From positions 620,001 through 684,000 of the forward strand of contig NZ_CP080378.1 of NCBI RefSeq assembly GCF_019443445.1: DNA of 64,000 nt. The letters are read 5' to 3'. Both the position numbers and the translations under genes were made by a program. The notes beneath the pieces are model-generated. The model ran no database searches and had not been told where the DNA came from. It was given only the letters and a program-made list of their open reading frames with translations. This document shows positions 26,511 to 34,850 of the stretch, piece after piece; the stretch's first letter is position 1, and every line of letters starts with the position of its first letter. The DNA is from Massilia sp. PAMC28688 (GTDB lineage: Bacteria; Pseudomonadota; Gammaproteobacteria; Burkholderiales; Burkholderiaceae_D).

Positions 26511-27404
26511 ATGACGAAGCCCCTGATGATTAATCTACATGAAACAGCCGCCATCATCGTCCACGGTGGCGTTGGCGGATTTGAACGCGACAGCGATGGC
26601 TGCGCCAGTGCAGCCGGCTGCGCCCGCGCGGAACTGGACCGTGGCAATGATGCACTGGCGGCAGCGATAGCCGCCGTAGTCGCCATGGAAGACGATGGCC
26701 GCTTCAATGCCGGCAGCGGCGCCATCCTGGGCCTGGATGGCGAAACCATCGAAATGGACGCGGCCGTCATGGACAGCCAGGGCCGTCTGGGGGCGGTGGC
26801 CTGTCTCCGCCGCGTCAAGAACCCGGTCCTGGTCGCGCGCGACGTGGCCGCCAGCCCCCACCGCATGCTGTGTGGCGAGGGCGCGCTGCGCTTTGCCCGG
26901 GTGGGCGGCCATGCCGACTATTACCAGCCGTCCGACAAGGCCGGCATTGTCCACCGCGCCCTGATCAGCGCCCTGGCCCCCGACGCCGGCCCGTTCGGCA
27001 TGCTGTGGAATTACCAGCTGCCGCCGCCGGAACCGGTGCGCTACGCCTGCGACACGGTGGGCGCGGTCGTGCGCGACAGCAATGGCCATTTTGGCGTCGC
27101 CGCCTCTACCGGTGGCAGCGCGCCGGCCCTGTCCGGCCGGGTGGGCGATACGCCGCTGGTAGGCAGTGGATTTTATGCCGGCAAGGCTGGCGCCGTCACC
27201 GTCACCGGACAGGGAGAACAGATCATTCCGCACCTGCTCGCCCACACGGTCTACCAATGGCTGGCAGAAGGCGGGGCCATGGAAAATGCCCTGCAGCGCG
27301 GCCTCGGCCTGTTTGCCTCCGACCTGGATATCGGCATCATCGCCATTACGGCCGGCATGGCCGGCAGCGCCAGCCGGCGCGGCATGCCGGTCACCTTGCT
27401 CTGA
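26511..27404 (+). CDS. Isoaspartyl peptidase / plant-type L-asparaginase (Ntn hydrolase)
   Basis: A 297-residue precursor from the ATG at 26511; the frame is open from 26355 but only this ATG gives the family start before IIVHGGVGG. Ntn-hydrolase features are FNAGSGAILG, MDAAVMD and the autocleavage site CDTVGAVV, with nucleophile Thr182. AASTGG and GRVGDTPLVGSG supply substrate contacts. The enzyme splits itself before Thr182 and hydrolyses beta-aspartyl dipeptides. Beta-Asp-Arg from cyanophycin is a known substrate class for these enzymes. A cyanophycinase and a cyanophycin-synthetase relative lie 2.7 kb downstream on the same strand, so a role in that pathway is likely but not proven. Confidence 0.85.
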   Translation: MTKPLMINLHETAAIIVHGGVGGFERDSDGCASAAGCARAELDRGNDALAAAIAAVVAMEDDGRFNAGSGAILGLDGETIEMDAAVMDSQGRLGAVACLRRVKNPVLVARDVAASPHRMLCGEGALRFARVGGHADYYQPSDKAGIVHRALISALAPDAGPFGMLWNYQLPPPEPVRYACDTVGAVVRDSNGHFGVAASTGGSAPALSGRVGDTPLVGSGFYAGKAGAVTVTGQGEQIIPHLLAHTVYQWLAEGGAMENALQRGLGLFASDLDIGIIAITAGMAGSASRRGMPVTLL

Positions 27405-27593
27405 CGCCTTTGCTCTGAAGCAATAGCTGGCGCACGGCCCGGACTCGGCCCTGTTAAATATTAAACTCGCCTGCCAGCCCGCCGACACACGGTCGTTCGT
27501 AATCGTTGTCTTACACGAACACAGCTCCGCTGCCGATAGGTCAAGAATGTTGACACGGGCATAATAAGTTTTTCGATGTGAAATGACGATCCC

Positions 27594-29069
27594 ATGCTTA
27601 CTTCATGCCCTTACCAGCAGGACGGCAGCGCTACCCTGAATGCGCCCAGCCCGGTCCTGGCCAGCGGCAGCCCGTCGCGCACCCTGTACGAGCAGCTTGC
27701 CCACGGCATGGCCGAAGACTGCGAGCGGGACATTGACGCCTATCTCGAACGTCAGATTGGCGCCAGCCTGGCCCTGCCCTGCGACCTGCCGGAAAACCCC
27801 GCCGAGCTGGCCGGGTGGGCCGCACCGCGCAGCGCCGCCATTGGCAAGCTGTATCGCGACTATCTCGCCGAACGCAAGGCCGGCGCCCCGCGCCGCTATT
27901 TCTCCAACCGTGCGCACGCCCTGTACTTCCTGCGCTGCGTGGCGCCCACCAAGCTGGTCGATGGCGCCTGGCTGTTCAGCTGCCTGCGTCGCTGGCATGA
28001 AAACGAATTTCGCCCCCTGATCAAGACCTACGTCGAAGAGCTGGGCGACGGCCTGCCGGCCAAGAACCACGTCACGCTGTACCAGCGCCTGCTCGACACC
28101 CATGCCTGCAATGACTGGCATGATCTGGACGACGCCCACTTTGAACAGGGCGCCATCCAGCTGGCCCTGGCCTACGGGGGTGAGCGCTTCCTGCCCGAGA
28201 TGGTGGGCTACAACCTGGGCTACGAACAGCTGCCCCTGCACCTGCTGATCACCTCGTACGAACTCAATGAGCTGGGCATCGACCCCTATTATTTTCAGCT
28301 GCACGTCACGGTGGACAATGCCGCCACCGGCCACGCGCATGACGCGGTGGACGCGCTGCAGCGGCTGATGGCGCGCGCGCGCGACCCCAGGGATTTCTAC
28401 CGCCGTGTCAAGAATGGCTACCGCCTCAATGAGCTGGGCGCCAGCACCAATTCCGTCATCAACGACTTTGACCTTGAAACCGAGTTGGTGCGCATCATGG
28501 CCAGCAAGGCGGCAGTGGGCCAGGACATGCATGGCGACTATTGCCGCGTGGCCGGCAAGACCATCAATGCCTGGCTGGCCGACCAGTCGCAGATTCCGGA
28601 ATTGCTGCGCGCCTTTGAGCGCACCGGCTGGATCAAGCGCGGGGCCCCGGCCGAGGAAAGCCGCTTCTGGCGCCTGATCCAGGGCGAACGTGCTGAAATG
28701 TTCGGCGTCTTTTCACCCTACGAGCAGCAGATCCTGTCGGACTGGATCAATACGCCGCAAGACGCTTCCGCCGCTGCCGTCACGACAAGAATTCCCTCGT
28801 TCCGCGCCCGCCAGCGTGCCCTGGAACCGGTGGCCGCCCCGCGCCCGGCGCCGCATGCACTGCGCACCCTGATCCGCTATCCCTACCAGGGCCTGGCCGG
28901 TGAGCACGCGGCCGAGGACGACCAGCTGCGCGCGCTGGAACAGGCCGTCGCCCTTGCCCCCACCAAGGCCGATGCCATGAACCTGCTGATTGAACAGATG
29001 TCCCCGGCGCGCCACCACAGCGCAGCAGGCCTGATGGCCACCCGCATGTTCGTGCGCCTGCTGGGTTGA
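27594..29069 (+). CDS. Heme-oxygenase-like iron-containing redox enzyme (HDO superfamily)
   Basis: This 491-residue protein is the first gene of a four-gene operon. The central 300 residues look like the iron-containing redox enzyme family (PF14518-like). They include a helical core with RRWHENEFRPLIKTYVEELG, then MVGYNLGYEQLPLHLLITSY, ELNELGIDPYYFQLHVTVDN and GHAHDAVDAL, with several Glu and His suited to a diiron site. Known relatives (UndA, BesC, SznF, AetD) perform oxidative cleavage or N-oxygenation of amino acids and fatty acids. The C-terminal 120 residues are an extra region of unknown role. It is separated from the methyltransferase by 3 bp. The substrate is unknown. Confidence 0.75.
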   Translation: MLTSCPYQQDGSATLNAPSPVLASGSPSRTLYEQLAHGMAEDCERDIDAYLERQIGASLALPCDLPENPAELAGWAAPRSAAIGKLYRDYLAERKAGAPRRYFSNRAHALYFLRCVAPTKLVDGAWLFSCLRRWHENEFRPLIKTYVEELGDGLPAKNHVTLYQRLLDTHACNDWHDLDDAHFEQGAIQLALAYGGERFLPEMVGYNLGYEQLPLHLLITSYELNELGIDPYYFQLHVTVDNAATGHAHDAVDALQRLMARARDPRDFYRRVKNGYRLNELGASTNSVINDFDLETELVRIMASKAAVGQDMHGDYCRVAGKTINAWLADQSQIPELLRAFERTGWIKRGAPAEESRFWRLIQGERAEMFGVFSPYEQQILSDWINTPQDASAAAVTTRIPSFRARQRALEPVAAPRPAPHALRTLIRYPYQGLAGEHAAEDDQLRALEQAVALAPTKADAMNLLIEQMSPARHHSAAGLMATRMFVRLLG

Positions 29070-29072
29070 GCC

Positions 29073-30086
29073 ATGAGCGCAGCCGTCATCTCCATCGAAG
29101 AACACCGCATCGAGCAGGTGCTGCCCCAGGGCGCCGCCAGCGACGAGTGCAAGGCGGCGCTGGTCAAACTGGGCGTCGCGCTCAAGCAGCATGCCTATGA
29201 ATTCACCACCGTCACGCCGCTGACGCACAAGCGTGTCAATGAGCGCGCCAGCGCCGCGCTGGCGCACGACCTGCCCGCCATCTTTGGCTGGAACCGTCCA
29301 TTCCGGTATGCCGTCCCCGGCCCCTACATCCTGGACCTGATGCGCGCCGCCGGCGTGGTCGATGGCGATGCCGGCGAAGGCATGCAGCGCGCCACGGTGC
29401 GCGCTTCCACCCTGGGCGGCCAGCTGTACTTCCACTCAAGCTGGCCCACCACTGCCAGCGATTCCGTGTTTTTTGGCCCCGATACCTACCGCTTCGTGCG
29501 CGAACTGCGGCGCGCCCTGCCCGCGCTGGCGTCGTCCGTCAGGCGCGCCGTCGATATCGGCTGCGGCGCCGGTCCGGCAGCCATCGCCATCGCCCTGGCC
29601 TGTCCCGAGGCGACCGTGTTCGCCGCCGACATCAATCCCGCCGCCCTGGTGCTGGCCGAAGTCAATGCGCGCATCGCCGGCGCCGGCAACGTCGTCACCG
29701 TCAACAGCAATATGCTCAACAACGTCGACGGCCAGTTTGACCTGATTGTGGCCAACCCGCCCTACCTGGTCGACAGTGAGCAGCGCACCTACCGCCATGG
29801 CGGTGGCGACCTGGGCGCCGCGTTTTCGCTGGCCGTGGTCAGCGCCGCCATCGAGCGGCTCGCGCCCGGCGGCACGCTGCTGCTCTACACGGGCGTGGCC
29901 ATGATTTCCAGCGCCGACCCGTTCCGGGTCAAGTTCGAGCCGCGCCTGCGCGAGGCAGGTTTCGAATGGACCTACGAGGAAATCGATCCCGACATCTTTG
30001 GCGAGGAACTCGATACCGACGCCTACGCCGGCGCCGACCGCATTGCCGCGGTCTGGCTGCGCGCCACCGCCCCGGGGGCAGCATGA
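29073..30086 (+). CDS. Class I SAM methyltransferase, HemK/PrmC-like
   Basis: A 337-residue methyltransferase and second gene of the operon. SAM motif I is VDIGCGAGPAAIAIALACP (about residues 164-182), followed by the acidic VFAADINPAAL. The catalytic NPPY is at 228-231, in DLIVANPPYLVD. NPPY marks N-methylation of amide or amino nitrogens, as in the PrmC release-factor family, but the N-terminal 150 residues do not look like the PrmC helical domain. The product may be a small molecule rather than a release factor, given the operon. Its stop overlaps the next ATG (ATGA), so tight coupling is expected. Confidence 0.8.
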   Translation: MSAAVISIEEHRIEQVLPQGAASDECKAALVKLGVALKQHAYEFTTVTPLTHKRVNERASAALAHDLPAIFGWNRPFRYAVPGPYILDLMRAAGVVDGDAGEGMQRATVRASTLGGQLYFHSSWPTTASDSVFFGPDTYRFVRELRRALPALASSVRRAVDIGCGAGPAAIAIALACPEATVFAADINPAALVLAEVNARIAGAGNVVTVNSNMLNNVDGQFDLIVANPPYLVDSEQRTYRHGGGDLGAAFSLAVVSAAIERLAPGGTLLLYTGVAMISSADPFRVKFEPRLREAGFEWTYEEIDPDIFGEELDTDAYAGADRIAAVWLRATAPGAA

Positions 30087-30937
30087 GCGACGGCGCCGCT
30101 GGCAAACCCGGAAGCCTCCTGATCATCGGGGGCAGCGAAGACCGCGAGGATGCCCGTCATATCCTGGAGCGCTTCGTCACCCTGTGCGGAGGACCGGCCG
30201 GCCGCATCGCCGTCCTCACCGCCGCCAGCAAGATCGGTGAACTGGTGTGGCAGGACTACCAGAGGGCATTTGCACAACTCGGCGCGCATCACTGCGTGCC
30301 GATTCACATTGAAAGCCGCGCCGCCGCCAACCATCCTGCCATGGTGGCGGCCATCGACAGCGCCGACGGCATCTTCATGACCGGCGGCGACCAGAAGCGG
30401 CTGCTGTCGCTGGTGGGCGGCACCGCCGTGGCGCAGGCCCTGCATGCGGCCCTGGCCCGCGGCGCCTGCGTGGCCGGCACCAGCGCCGGCGCGTCGGCCA
30501 TGTCGGACGCCATGCTCACCTACGGGCGCGCACGCCTCAAGCCGGTCAAGGGCACGGTCGGCATGGGCAAGGGCCTGGGCTTCCTGCACGGGGTGATCAT
30601 TGACCAGCATTTTTCGCAGCGCCGCCGCCTGTCCCGCCTGCTGACCGTGGTGGCCCAGAACAGGAGCCTGATCGGCATAGGCATCGATGAAGATACGGCG
30701 CTGCTGATCGGCGCCGGCGAAGGCATCGAGATCATCGGCGCCGGCACCGTTACCGTGGTTGACGGGCGCTCCATGGTCACCGACATCGACAGCATCGACC
30801 CGCGCGCAGTACCGGAAATGCTCGACGTGCGCCTGCACATTTTGCCGGCAGGTAGGAGCCACCGCATTGCAGGCGGCGCACAACCCGGCGCGCTGAGCGA
30901 CTTCCTTCACCTCGCTACCCGGATTGTCCAGCCATGA
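30083..30937 (+). CDS. cphB: Cyanophycinase-like serine peptidase (S51)
   Basis: A 284-residue cytoplasmic protein. The S51 family features are a Rossmann-like start (SLLIIGGSEDRED), the nucleophile elbow GTSAGASAM with Ser134, IFMTGGDQKRLL, and GIGIDEDTALLI. Cyanophycinase cuts the multi-Asp-Arg polymer to beta-Asp-Arg dipeptides, and the gene context (isoaspartyl peptidase upstream, cyanophycin-synthetase relative downstream) supports that reading. The symbol is by family likeness; a related peptidase that trims another isopeptide is possible because the adjacent synthetase is not a complete CphA. It overlaps both neighbours by 4 bp. Confidence 0.82.
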   Translation: MSDGAAGKPGSLLIIGGSEDREDARHILERFVTLCGGPAGRIAVLTAASKIGELVWQDYQRAFAQLGAHHCVPIHIESRAAANHPAMVAAIDSADGIFMTGGDQKRLLSLVGGTAVAQALHAALARGACVAGTSAGASAMSDAMLTYGRARLKPVKGTVGMGKGLGFLHGVIIDQHFSQRRRLSRLLTVVAQNRSLIGIGIDEDTALLIGAGEGIEIIGAGTVTVVDGRSMVTDIDSIDPRAVPEMLDVRLHILPAGRSHRIAGGAQPGALSDFLHLATRIVQP

Positions 30938-32760
30938 AAATCATCGAACAGCGCATCCTGCGCGGCCCCAATCTCTGGTCCAGGAAGCGCTGCCTGCAGA
31001 CCGTGGTCGACATGGGCGAGCTGTCCGGCACGCTCAGCTGCGACCTGCCCGGCTTTGGCCACGATCTGCTCTCCACCTTTCCCGGCCTGCACCAGTTCGC
31101 AGCGCCCCTGGCCAACGGCAGTTTCGTGGCCGAGACGGTTGCCCAGGTCACGCTCGAACTGCAGCGCATGGCGGGCGCCGCGCCCGACCACCGCTTTGCC
31201 GCCATCATGCAGGGCAAGCAGCAGCAAGTCAAAATCATCGTCGCCTACCAGCTCGAAACGCTGGCGCAAAAGGCCTTTGCCATGGCGCTGGACGTGGTGG
31301 CCCGGCTGGCCCGGGGCGAGAACGTGGCGATCGAGGACGATCTGGCCGAGCTGACCGCACTGGCCCAGGGCTGCGCCGTGGACCCGCAAACGGCCGTGGT
31401 GGTCAACGCCGCCCTGGCGCGCGGCATTCCGGCCATCCGGACCGGGGGCGACAGCGGCCAGTTCCAGCTTGGCTGGGGTAGCCGCCAGCAGCGTCTTGAT
31501 GGCAGCGGCGGCGTGATCTGCCTAGACGCCCTGTTCGGCGCCGGCGACGGCCGCATTCCCGTCATCGCCGTCACCGGCACCAACGGCAAGACCACCACGT
31601 CGCTGATGATCGCGCACTGCGCGCGCCTGGCGGGGCTGGGCACGGGCGTTACCACCACCGAAGGCATTTACATCAACGGCCAGCGCGTGATGGCCGGCGA
31701 CTGCGCCGGTTTTCACTCGGCCCGCCTGCTGCTGTCTTCGCCGGAAGTCGACCTGGCGGTCCTGGAAACGGCCCGCGGCGGCATCCTGAAGCGCGGCCTG
31801 GCGTTTGACCGGTGCGCGGTGGCGGTGGTGCTGAACGTGTCAGCCGACCATCTGGGGCTGGACGGGGTGGAGACCGTGGACGACCTGGCACGGGTCAAGG
31901 CGGTGGTGGCCAGGAGCGCATCGGAAGCGGTGGTGCTCAATGCGGACGATCCATTTTGCATGGCCATGGAACCGGCGCTGGACGCGAGCGTTCAGCGCAT
32001 CTATTTTTCCATGTGCGCCGACAGCGCCATCTTGCTGCGCCACCTGGACGGGGGCGGCCGCGCAGCCTGGTACCAGGACAGCACGCTGATGCTGGGCGAT
32101 GGCGCGCGCCGCATCGAGCTGCTCAAGGCCAGCGCCATGCCGGCCGCCCTGCATGGCCACGCGCGCTTTAACGTAGCCAACGGCCTGGCGGCAGCGGCAG
32201 CCCTGTTGGCGGCGTCCTTCACGCCGGCGCAGACCGCTGCCGGCCTGGCCAGCTTTGTGTCGGACCAGGATAACAATCCGCTGCGCGCCAACCTGCACTA
32301 CCGGCGCGGCATTGCGGTAATGGTGGACTATGCCCATAACCCTGCGGCCTACGCTGCCCTTGGCCAGTTGCGTTCCCTCGCGCGCGGGCGCTGCGTGGGC
32401 GTGGTCACCAGCCCGGGCGACCGGCGCGACGCCGACCTGCGCGCCATCGGCCGCGCCTGCGCCGGCGCATTCGACGAACTGTTTGCATACGAAGCCGATC
32501 CGCGCGGCCGGGAACCCGGCGCCACTGCGCAGTGCATCCTGGACGGCGCCCGCGACGGCGGCATGCACGGCGCCACAATGCACCCGATCACCAATGTGAG
32601 CGACGCCTTTGGCGCGGCCATGGCCAGCTGCGAAGCCGGCGACATGATCATCTTCGCGTGCGCCTCGATCGACACGGCCTTGCGCGAACTGGCCCGCTTC
32701 GACGATCAGCACGCCCTGCCCCGGCCCGCGCGCACCTACGTTCCCAGCCTGGCGCGCTAG
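30934..32760 (+). CDS. Cyanophycin synthetase relative lacking the ATP-grasp domain (Mur-ligase type)
   Basis: A 608-residue protein, while CphA1 has about 875-900. Residues 1-165 match the CphA N-terminal domain (ILRGPNLWSRKRC, VAQVTLELQRMAG). About 165-190 keep the first piece of the ATP-grasp region (ARGIPAIRTG, then GWGSRQQRLDG). The sequence then jumps to the linker and Mur-ligase domain (DGRIPVIAVTGTNGKTTT, P-loop 215-221), followed by VLETARGGILKRGLAFDR, VLNVSADHLGL, VLNADDP and DYAHNPAAY. In CphA the ATP-grasp half adds Asp to the backbone and the Mur-like half adds Arg to the side chain. Here only the second reaction type is retained. This is the opposite of CphA2. The substrate is unknown. 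It is the last gene of the operon. Confidence 0.84.
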   Translation: MKIIEQRILRGPNLWSRKRCLQTVVDMGELSGTLSCDLPGFGHDLLSTFPGLHQFAAPLANGSFVAETVAQVTLELQRMAGAAPDHRFAAIMQGKQQQVKIIVAYQLETLAQKAFAMALDVVARLARGENVAIEDDLAELTALAQGCAVDPQTAVVVNAALARGIPAIRTGGDSGQFQLGWGSRQQRLDGSGGVICLDALFGAGDGRIPVIAVTGTNGKTTTSLMIAHCARLAGLGTGVTTTEGIYINGQRVMAGDCAGFHSARLLLSSPEVDLAVLETARGGILKRGLAFDRCAVAVVLNVSADHLGLDGVETVDDLARVKAVVARSASEAVVLNADDPFCMAMEPALDASVQRIYFSMCADSAILLRHLDGGGRAAWYQDSTLMLGDGARRIELLKASAMPAALHGHARFNVANGLAAAAALLAASFTPAQTAAGLASFVSDQDNNPLRANLHYRRGIAVMVDYAHNPAAYAALGQLRSLARGRCVGVVTSPGDRRDADLRAIGRACAGAFDELFAYEADPRGREPGATAQCILDGARDGGMHGATMHPITNVSDAFGAAMASCEAGDMIIFACASIDTALRELARFDDQHALPRPARTYVPSLAR

Positions 32761-33506: not shown

Positions 33507-34850
33507 ATGGCGATCACGATCTCGCGCATCCTGCATGCAGGCTACGTGTTTACATGCGGCGAGACCGTGATCGCGTTCGACCCGATTGTCGAAAATCCCT
33601 TCAGCCGCAACTGCCATGCCTTCCCCGACGTGGCATTCGACCACGCGCAGATTGCCCGGCTGCGCCTGGCGGCGGTATTCATCTCGCATTACCACGACGA
33701 CCACTGCTCGCTCGACAGCCTGGTGCACCTTGACCGCGCCACGCCCATCTACATGTACTGCCTGTTCGAGGAAATGTTCGACATGATCCGCGCGCTCGGC
33801 TTCACGCAGGTGCAGCAGGTGCGCACCAATGAGCCGATCCGCGTGGGCGCATTTGACGTCATTGCGCGCCAGGCGCTAGACGCCGACGTCGACTCCATGT
33901 TCCAGATCCAGGCCGAAGGCCTCAATATCCTCAACGTGGTCGACGCCTGGATCGACAGCGACTGCCTGGCGCGCTACGCCGACAGCGTGCGCTGGGACAT
34001 GGTGCTGTGGCCATTCCAGACCATGCGCGAACTGGCGGTCCTGTCGCCCGGCCGCGCGCAGCCGGTGCCTGAGGCGCTGCCGGAAGAATGGTTCGAGCAG
34101 CTCGCCATGCTGGCCCCGCGCTATCTGGTGCCAAGTTCCTGCCAGTTCGTGCAGGAGCCATGGTCCTGGTACCGGCATGCCTACTTCCCGGTCAGCTACC
34201 GCCGCTTCGCGCGCGAGATGGCGGCAGCGCTGCCCGGCACGCAGGTGGTGCGGCTCAATCCCTCGGTGTCCGTCACGCTCGACCAGGACGGCGTGCGCCC
34301 CGCGCCGCCGCTGCCATGGGTGCAGCCGGTGGGTGAGCAGGATGTGGACTACCATTATGACCCGCTCCTTCCGGTGCCTTCCACCGCCAGCATCGCCCGT
34401 CGATTCGGGAAGCTGACCGACGACGAACAGGCACTGGTCGATGCATATTGCAGCGCGGGGCTGCTGGAAAAGTACCGCGCCATGCAACTGGACGAGGAAA
34501 GCTACTTTGCCCGGCCCCGCGTGTGGCAGCTGTCCGTATTCGACCACGAAGGCACCGCCAGACCATACTGGTACCGGGTCCATGGCGACATGATCACGTC
34601 CATCGCGCCCGGCAGCGCGGCGCCCGCGTGGACCACCGAGGTTCCCGCCGCCAAACTGCACGGGGCGCTGGCGCTGGGCGAATCGCTCACCACCATGTAC
34701 ATGCGCATCAACGGCGGCACGTTTGACGACGCCATCGAGGCCGACCTGCAGCACGCCGACCTGCTCGACGACCCACTGGTGCGCACCCTCTTCAACGACA
34801 TCTTCGGCGCCTACCAGGCAGCCCAGCTGCGGCGCCTGCAAGGGGCGTAG
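33507..34850 (+). CDS. Metallo-beta-lactamase-fold hydrolase, large form
   Basis: A 447-residue protein with an N-terminal MBL fold. The zinc motif HYHDDH is at residues 61-66, after [17 protein letters not shown]. The fourth-ligand region is [14 protein letters not shown], where an Asp replaces the usual GDT motif. The last 170 residues form a separate alpha/beta extension (DEDYHYDP-like, [20 protein letters not shown]) with no recognised family. It is probably a cytoplasmic hydrolase; the substrate is unknown. It starts 2 bp after the DJ-1 gene. Confidence 0.72.

Follow-up and report, generated by a model that had tools for sequence, protein, structure and literature searches.

Cyanophycin synthetase is known to carry two ligase sites on a single chain. 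The cyanobacterial relative CphA2 has a single active site of the ATP-grasp (G) type, its Mur-ligase (M) site being inactive. Passages of one study describe CphA2 as polymerising β-Asp-Arg dipeptides with a single active site and give a cyanophycinase (CphB) in only 2.8% of the CphA1-encoding betaproteobacterial genomes (PMC10206079); CphB-linked loci are therefore already unusual. According to passages of another report, CphA1 has been studied by means of heterodimers whose active sites lie on different protomers (PMC9262961). We analyzed a 64,000-nucleotide stretch of DNA from Massilia sp. PAMC28688 (NZ_CP080378.1, positions 620,001 to 684,000; the whole stretch is called the window), in which a CphA homologue of 608 residues (30934..32760, + strand) consists of an N domain (residues ~1–190) and a complete M domain (~193–590) and lacks the G domain. 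The gene closes a cluster encoding an isoaspartyl aminopeptidase (IaaA), a haem-oxygenase-like diiron enzyme (HDO), a methyltransferase (MT), and CphB. On the basis of sequence comparison, we lean modestly towards the window CphA being an M-only cyanophycin-type ligase that works with a G-bearing CphA.

An earlier note on this DNA had described the protein as a CphA relative with an N domain and a complete Mur half, and without the ATP-grasp domain, which profile searches and residue scoring bear out. Pfam models match at residues 24-126 (PF18921; 35.1 bits, cut-off 27), 213-423 (PF08245), and 456-575 (PF02875), and no ATP-grasp model matched at E ≤ 0.001 in the Pfam scan. The CphA equivalog model TIGR02068 reaches 500.9 bits, below its cut-off of 850, with model positions 467-860 aligned to residues 197-588. 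We scored key residues of both sites, taking at least 7 of 8 as an intact G site (G+) and at least 11 of 12 as an intact M site (M+); the window CphA has 0/8 for G and 12/12 for M. The spacer between the motif at the end of the N domain (GWGSRQ) and the P-loop (GTNGKT) is 35 residues long, as against 297–302 (298 in almost every case) in those full-length relatives that were measured. About 260 residues, close to the 250 claimed earlier, are thus absent in frame, with no stop codon, at the junction defined by spacer and alignment (31471..31575, + strand; from GWGSRQ at residue 180 to just before the P-loop at residue 215). The P-loop GTNGKTT of the M domain (31576..31596, + strand) is intact. 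The AlphaFold2 (AF2) model superposes on the N and M core of TeCphA1 over 440 residues at 1.6 Å and retains the N-M arrangement of CphA1. The HxxEH primer site is missing. Ratios of nonsynonymous to synonymous substitution (dN/dS) from codon alignments (NG86) are rough, dS being high: for the M domain they are 0.35 and 0.39 between the window and two same-genus genomes (G010 and G014, respectively) and 0.17 between these two, and for the N domain 0.74 and 1.03 against 0.32. By these estimates, the M domain of the window CphA is clearly more constrained than its N domain.

The HDO gene has matches in 10 of the 16 other same-genus genomes searched, and the gene order HDO-MT-CphB-CphA, for which the earlier note had proposed a search, is kept in seven of them (G002, G004, G008, G010, G012, G014, and G016). 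All seven syntenic CphAs are full length (863–874 residues), with M domains 66–67% identical to that of the window CphA. Because of these full-length orthologues, the window deletion is, as far as the same-genus comparison goes, private to its lineage, in which it arose. The earlier note had held that orthologues with the ATP-grasp domain and a private deletion would speak against its reading. Taken literally, the seven orthologues present just that, yet the loss recurs independently in relatives with the M site preserved; a purely private deletion holds for the nearest orthologues and is rejected as the whole story by the recurrent loss of G in other relatives. In G003 and G005, the HDO adjoins a CphA with an internally shortened ATP-grasp domain that has lost the EVNAAPG motif.

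In G007, the site with the flanks of the window cluster, between NHL/SnoaL/PAAR genes and a DJ-1 gene, holds a 162-residue open reading frame (ORF) with a CphA N-domain stretch (L135 9783-10271) and none of the other cluster genes, and the HDO match lies elsewhere, split over two frames (L134 9264-10776); the cluster seems to be decaying there. In G004 and G012, open frames of ~1250 codons with a 28–31% identical HDO region (L024, L025, and L027) are possible large HDO fusions.

A sequencing or assembly artefact that removed the G domain would agree with its presence in the closest orthologues. The in-frame junction, the genome assembly of one contig, the divergence of the rest of the protein (66–67% identity in M), and losses of this class in numerous further assemblies make this explanation extremely improbable. 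A pseudogene is disfavoured by the 12/12 M residues, the in-frame junction, and the M-domain dN/dS of 0.35. A redundant copy that is decaying while still in frame could account for the full-length nearest orthologues, the long branch, and the relaxed N domain, as well as for the N-domain remnant and split HDO of G007. We consider it very unlikely, as all but one of the 25 other reduced CphAs described below share the complete M site of the window CphA and together span at least six changes on the tree, and as the M-domain dN/dS is low and the gene overlaps are intact.

We extended the comparison with an HDO-alignment scan, annotating the best 80 of 580 relatives (598 matched stretches), a choice biased to close relatives of the query and including some loci that end at contig ends. 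Among these best 80 loci, CphA is found within about 10 kb at 65, CphB at 52, IaaA at 35, and MT at 26. Classified by key residues, 23 of the loci have two complete CphAs, 21 have one complete CphA, 16 have a complete and a G-reduced CphA, two have only a G-reduced CphA, and one has a G+/M-dead and a G-reduced CphA; 16 were not classified, 15 of them without CphA and one with a contig-end fragment. At one of the 80 loci (L069), a G+/M-dead CphA was seen, and its G-reduced partner was found once the record was extended. No locus among the best 80 combines two G-reduced CphAs or two M-dead ones. A family-wide CphA search, in which 53 of 294 genomes matched at E ≤ 1e-105 (the window genome included) and four candidates per genome were scored, added G-reduced cases in G668, G729, G825, G885, and G740.

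In total, Massilia, Duganella, Janthinobacterium, and kin have yielded 26 distinct G-reduced CphAs: 19 in named loci, that of the window, and those of L152, L185, L186, L187, L188, and L189 (=L194). The M site is complete (12/12) in 25 of them and 11/12 in that of G825. Their spacers have lengths of 31, 35 (two), 36 (two), 51 (two), 61, 88, 138 (seven), 154, 178, 193, 194, 197 (two), 219 (three), and 227 residues. The HxxEH primer site is present in 0 of the 20 G-reduced rows audited and in 16 of 92 complete rows. G885 (L187, L196) has two different G-reduced CphAs, with spacers of 35 and 138 residues, and one complete family CphA; G668 and G729 have a tight IaaA-CphA pair. In Pollutimonas (L117 and L124), HDO-MT is followed downstream by a CphA of ~930 residues, in L124 with CphB too, and these CphAs stand on a long separate branch.

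We reconstructed the history of the reduced state on trees of the M domain, which left out proteins shorter than 560 residues and two M-dead proteins. With 112 rows, the reduced state needs nine changes, of which at least seven are forced by starred branches; with 109 rows, without far outgroups, the figures are the same. A tree of 120 rows needs ten changes with seven forced, and one of 119 rows with all 26 reduced CphAs needs eleven with six forced. Two Pollutimonas rows were dropped from the 109-, 120-, and 119-row trees, and two canonical rows from the 109-row tree only. L185 and L186, with a different residue before the P-loop, were absent from the 120-row tree and added to the 119-row tree. 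The latter omits, as duplicates, the second G740 row and both L196 rows of G885, a genome that we took to be that of L096. Several reduced rows lie on long branches, and gene conversion between paralogues is possible. Approximately unbiased (AU) tests on 40 hand-picked rows, with groups named after seeing the trees, rejected a single origin of the reduced state (log-likelihood difference 438, p-AU 5.8e-8) and also the pairings of the window row with L095, L108, L101, or L187 and that of L095 with L108. Repeated loss of the G domain with the M domain kept is the most firmly established result of the analysis.

The losses are distributed between paralogues in two ways. In the first, they are reciprocal: Janthinobacterium FT58W lost G in one paralogue and Duganella aceris in the other. 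Each reduced copy groups with the full copy of the other species (SH-aLRT 88 and 87, within sets supported at 96 and 95), and the AU test on the same 40 rows rejected a clade uniting both reduced copies. In the second, they are complementary. Three family CphAs were found with a broken M site, the P-loop lysine being lost and the C-terminal lobe truncated, and each of them keeps G 8/8 and has a G-dead/M-intact CphA beside it at the locus (L094 of Massilia solisilvae, L069/L152 of Duganella sp. 1411, and L194 of G740). We count the complementary loss as two lineages because the G-dead partners of L069/L152 and L194 group together. These three loci are an apparent natural split, and the complementary and reciprocal losses argue for work shared by two paralogues. 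More widely, a family-type G-bearing CphA occurs in the same genome for 21 of the 26 G-reduced CphAs, at the same locus for 19 and elsewhere for two, namely the paralogue of the window genome and the C16 copy of G885. This usual retention of G in a sister gene may mean that the job is split between two proteins. We reject the claim that a family-type partner accompanies each reduced CphA, as five of the 26 have none.

A full CphA elsewhere in the window genome, for which the earlier note had suggested a check, is present at C1:3477723-3480425, besides a canonical CphA/CphA' pair at about C1:3.463-3.468 Mb (L041), where CphA' is the M-crippled member of the betaproteobacterial pair. The full paralogue is of the family type, with G 8/8, M 12/12, and the HxxEH primer site kept, and its M domain is 56% identical to that of the window CphA. 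When the genome was searched with the G domain of an orthologue, the only hits were its three remaining CphA genes and, weakly (27% identity), a 364-residue frame; on this search, a gene of its own for the missing G domain is rejected.

All five genes of the cluster, including the isoaspartyl peptidase upstream, were found by profile matches where the earlier note had placed them, and all are on the + strand. IaaA, a plant-type asparaginase homologue (26511..27404), matches PF01112 (Asparaginase_2) with 184 bits and keeps the DTVGAV region from residue 181, whose Thr is presumably the Ntn nucleophile; it is linked in five of the seven syntenic same-genus operons. After 189 bp follows the HDO, a DtpC homologue (27594..29069, PF14518), and after another 3 bp the HemK/PrmC-like S-adenosylmethionine-dependent MT (29073..30086), identified by PF05175 above its cut-off, by alignment, and by motifs including NPPY at residues 228-231. 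CphB (30083..30937; TIGR02069 243 bits with a cut-off of 127, PF03575) keeps the GTSAG serine motif. The MT and CphB genes share 4 bp (ATGA), as do CphB and CphA, an arrangement suggestive of translational coupling of these three genes; the coupling proposed earlier had also taken in the HDO, which lies 3 bp from the MT without overlap. Just upstream of the cluster, a PAAR-motif protein (PF05488; 25024-25740) is a possible type VI secretion tip. Downstream, between a DJ-1/PfpI protein and an ORF resembling by eye a B-family DNA polymerase, a 447-residue ORF (33507-34850) gave no match in Pfam and NCBIfam searches.

The HDO shows the helical fold and the conserved His/carboxylate ligands of its superfamily. 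The putative metal ligands E149, H159, E211, H237, D241, and H247 are invariant in an alignment of 12 sequences, and D123 is also kept. The protein is 37% identical over 448 columns (E 1.6e-99), with the ligand positions kept, to an Acinetobacter baumannii HDO encoded beside a catalase gene, which we took as dtpC by gene order, spacing, and numbering rather than from the deposited protein. A sequence search of the PDB with the HDO gave nothing relevant, and Foldseek with the HDO model gave no match at E ≤ 0.001 (best 7.6e-3); by VIA-align, the fold is closest to the N-oxygenases RohS, HrmI, and SznF. The MT scores below the cut-offs of both release-factor models (TIGR03534, 78.3 bits with a cut-off of 199.1; TIGR00536, 69.5 with 115.5). 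On a plasmid of Acinetobacter sp. LUNF3 (L146, CP093969), a DtpC-like HDO lies with catalase, DUF421, DUF2171, and trehalose-6-phosphate synthase in a stress-type island. The PLSDB records NZ_CP064203, NZ_CP077849, and NZ_CP104448 (A. baumannii) are of chromosome size (3.7–4.1 Mb) and probably mislabelled or swapped.

Ligation of an amino acid to a side-chain carboxyl, as first proposed, is a plausible activity of the window protein, given its intact M site. In an M-only ligase working with a G-bearing paralogue, the N domain would serve as a substrate-binding scaffold and the M site would attach a basic amino acid to the Asp side-chain carboxylate, while the ATP-grasp site that would extend the Asp backbone is lost. 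The family CphA would act as two paralogous subunits, either in a mixed oligomer or as two enzymes on the same chain; one G site would be enough for both, so the other copy would be free to erode, and we infer that the M activity of the window protein serves its G-bearing paralogue in trans. The linked CphB and IaaA would degrade the chain.

Several observations weigh against this proposal. The candidate partner of the window CphA lies millions of bases away, among neighbours unrelated to the cluster by Pfam (OmpA, an aldehyde dehydrogenase, and a UvrA-like protein), and the N domain of the window CphA is strongly diverged (dN/dS as above, with high dS), its primer site lost. For five of the 26 reduced CphAs (G003=L078, G005=L109, G668, G729, and G825), no other family-type CphA was found, their genomes having only an apparent CphA/CphA' pair at canonical-level identity; these five argue against obligatory work with the family's own G enzyme. 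As for the other enzymes, G825 gave no HDO match at E ≤ 1e-30, and HDO-MT occurs without CphA in the fetched stretch at 10 of 11 loci from organisms outside the taxonomic order (20 kb for two, ~2–4 kb for the others) and without linked CphA at eight Stutzerimonas/Pseudomonas loci.

A stand-alone small-molecule ligase, making no polymer and joining an amino acid to the β-carboxyl of a free or peptide-terminal Asp, would yield a β-aspartyl dipeptide-type metabolite tailored by HDO and MT, a reading close to that of the earlier note. Such an enzyme would suit the loss of G activity in cis, the five reduced CphAs without a family-type G-bearing partner, two of them in the tight IaaA-CphA pairs of G668 and G729, and the resemblance of the HDO model to N-oxygenases; of these, two use substrates derived from Lys/Arg according to passages of PMC13108848. 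We regard it as rather unlikely, as the linked cyanophycinase with its GTSAG motif implies a polymeric substrate and the AF2 model still shows the N domain, arranged with M as in CphA1; the G-bearing family partners of 21 of the 26 reduced CphAs also count against it, and the complementary losses at three loci fit a shared product.

Returning to the M-only ligase with a G-bearing partner, one can ask what HDO and MT would add to its product. As a hypothesis only, in line with the oxidative step proposed in the earlier note, the DtpC-like HDO and the NPPY MT could N-oxygenate and N-methylate an Arg/Lys-type side group or monomer, perhaps for stress survival. It is possible, if somewhat doubtful, that CphA/CphB/IaaA and HDO/MT share the locus only through common, e.g., stress-phase, regulation, with HDO and MT not acting on the cyanophycin product. 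The HDO-MT pairs away from CphA point in this direction, as do the pairing of the Acinetobacter homologue with katE (passages of PMC13232832) and the fact that, at 54 of the best 80 HDO loci, the stretch fetched contains no MT, whereas CphA within about 10 kb at 65 of these 80 and the contiguous order in the window and seven relatives point away from it. Because the pair occurs without CphA nearby in other groups, HDO-MT may be a separable module. Other ORF families recur at the best 80 HDO loci as well, among them one of 422 residues in 20 loci (L073 19550-20818) and one of 509 residues in 11 (L057 8304-9833, directly upstream of the HDO); this may be plain synteny among close relatives, and the clustering of neighbours, in which families recur in 11–20 loci, used greedy ORF calls and was hampered by antisense ORFs in GC-rich DNA. 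The most far-reaching proposal has two parts: Massilia, Duganella, and kin would possess a naturally split two-subunit synthetase, in which one paralogue or the other would have shed G on at least six occasions and the partner its M in two lineages, and its product would be a modified cyanophycin, with basic side groups N-methylated and N-oxygenated by the NPPY MT and the DtpC-type HDO for survival of dry or oxidative stress and not only for nitrogen storage. Taken jointly, we judge the two parts unlikely.

In the open-access literature, covered by titles, abstract starts, and selected passages among the matches listed, we found no paper on a CphA without ATP-grasp domain or on cyanophycin genes with these enzymes or genera. 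If true, a split synthetase would amount to a natural experiment that bears on the reasons for fusing the two sites and on a possible passage of chains from one protomer to another, and it would provide ready-made M-only and G-only enzymes for polymer engineering. The HDO/MT module would be an addition to cyanophycin-type loci, which DtpC links to desiccation tolerance, and the locus suggests basic amino-acid side groups as the substrate class of the DtpC-type HDO group.

Compared with known systems, the window HDO is only 12–16% identical to RohS, HrmI, and SznF and has ~190 further C-terminal residues, in which no second Pfam domain was found. With DtpC of A. baumannii it shares the family and 37% identity, and the residues E143, H153, and H232, essential in DtpC according to passages of PMC13232832, correspond to E149, H159, and H237. 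The same passages place DtpC in an operon with the catalase KatE, whereas the window HDO adjoins IaaA and MT and is accompanied by CphB and CphA. The betaproteobacterial CphA/CphA' pair, as at L041, likewise consists of two paralogues per genome, one with a crippled domain. However, the CphA' of L041 keeps G 8/8 and has a broken and shortened M site (2/12), its partner CphA is complete, and no CphB, IaaA, HDO, or MT homologue occurs in the 19.9 kb read around the pair. CphA1 (PDB 7lg5 and 7wae) has in common with the window CphA the N and M domains, all 12 M residues, and, in the model, the N-M arrangement. Unlike CphA1, the window CphA lacks the G domain, so no Asp would be added in cis, and the HxxEH primer site. 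Like the cyanobacterial CphA2 (PDB 7ta5 and 8fxh), it is a CphA relative with one remaining active site, but it is reduced in the opposite way, with G lost (0/8) and M kept (12/12).

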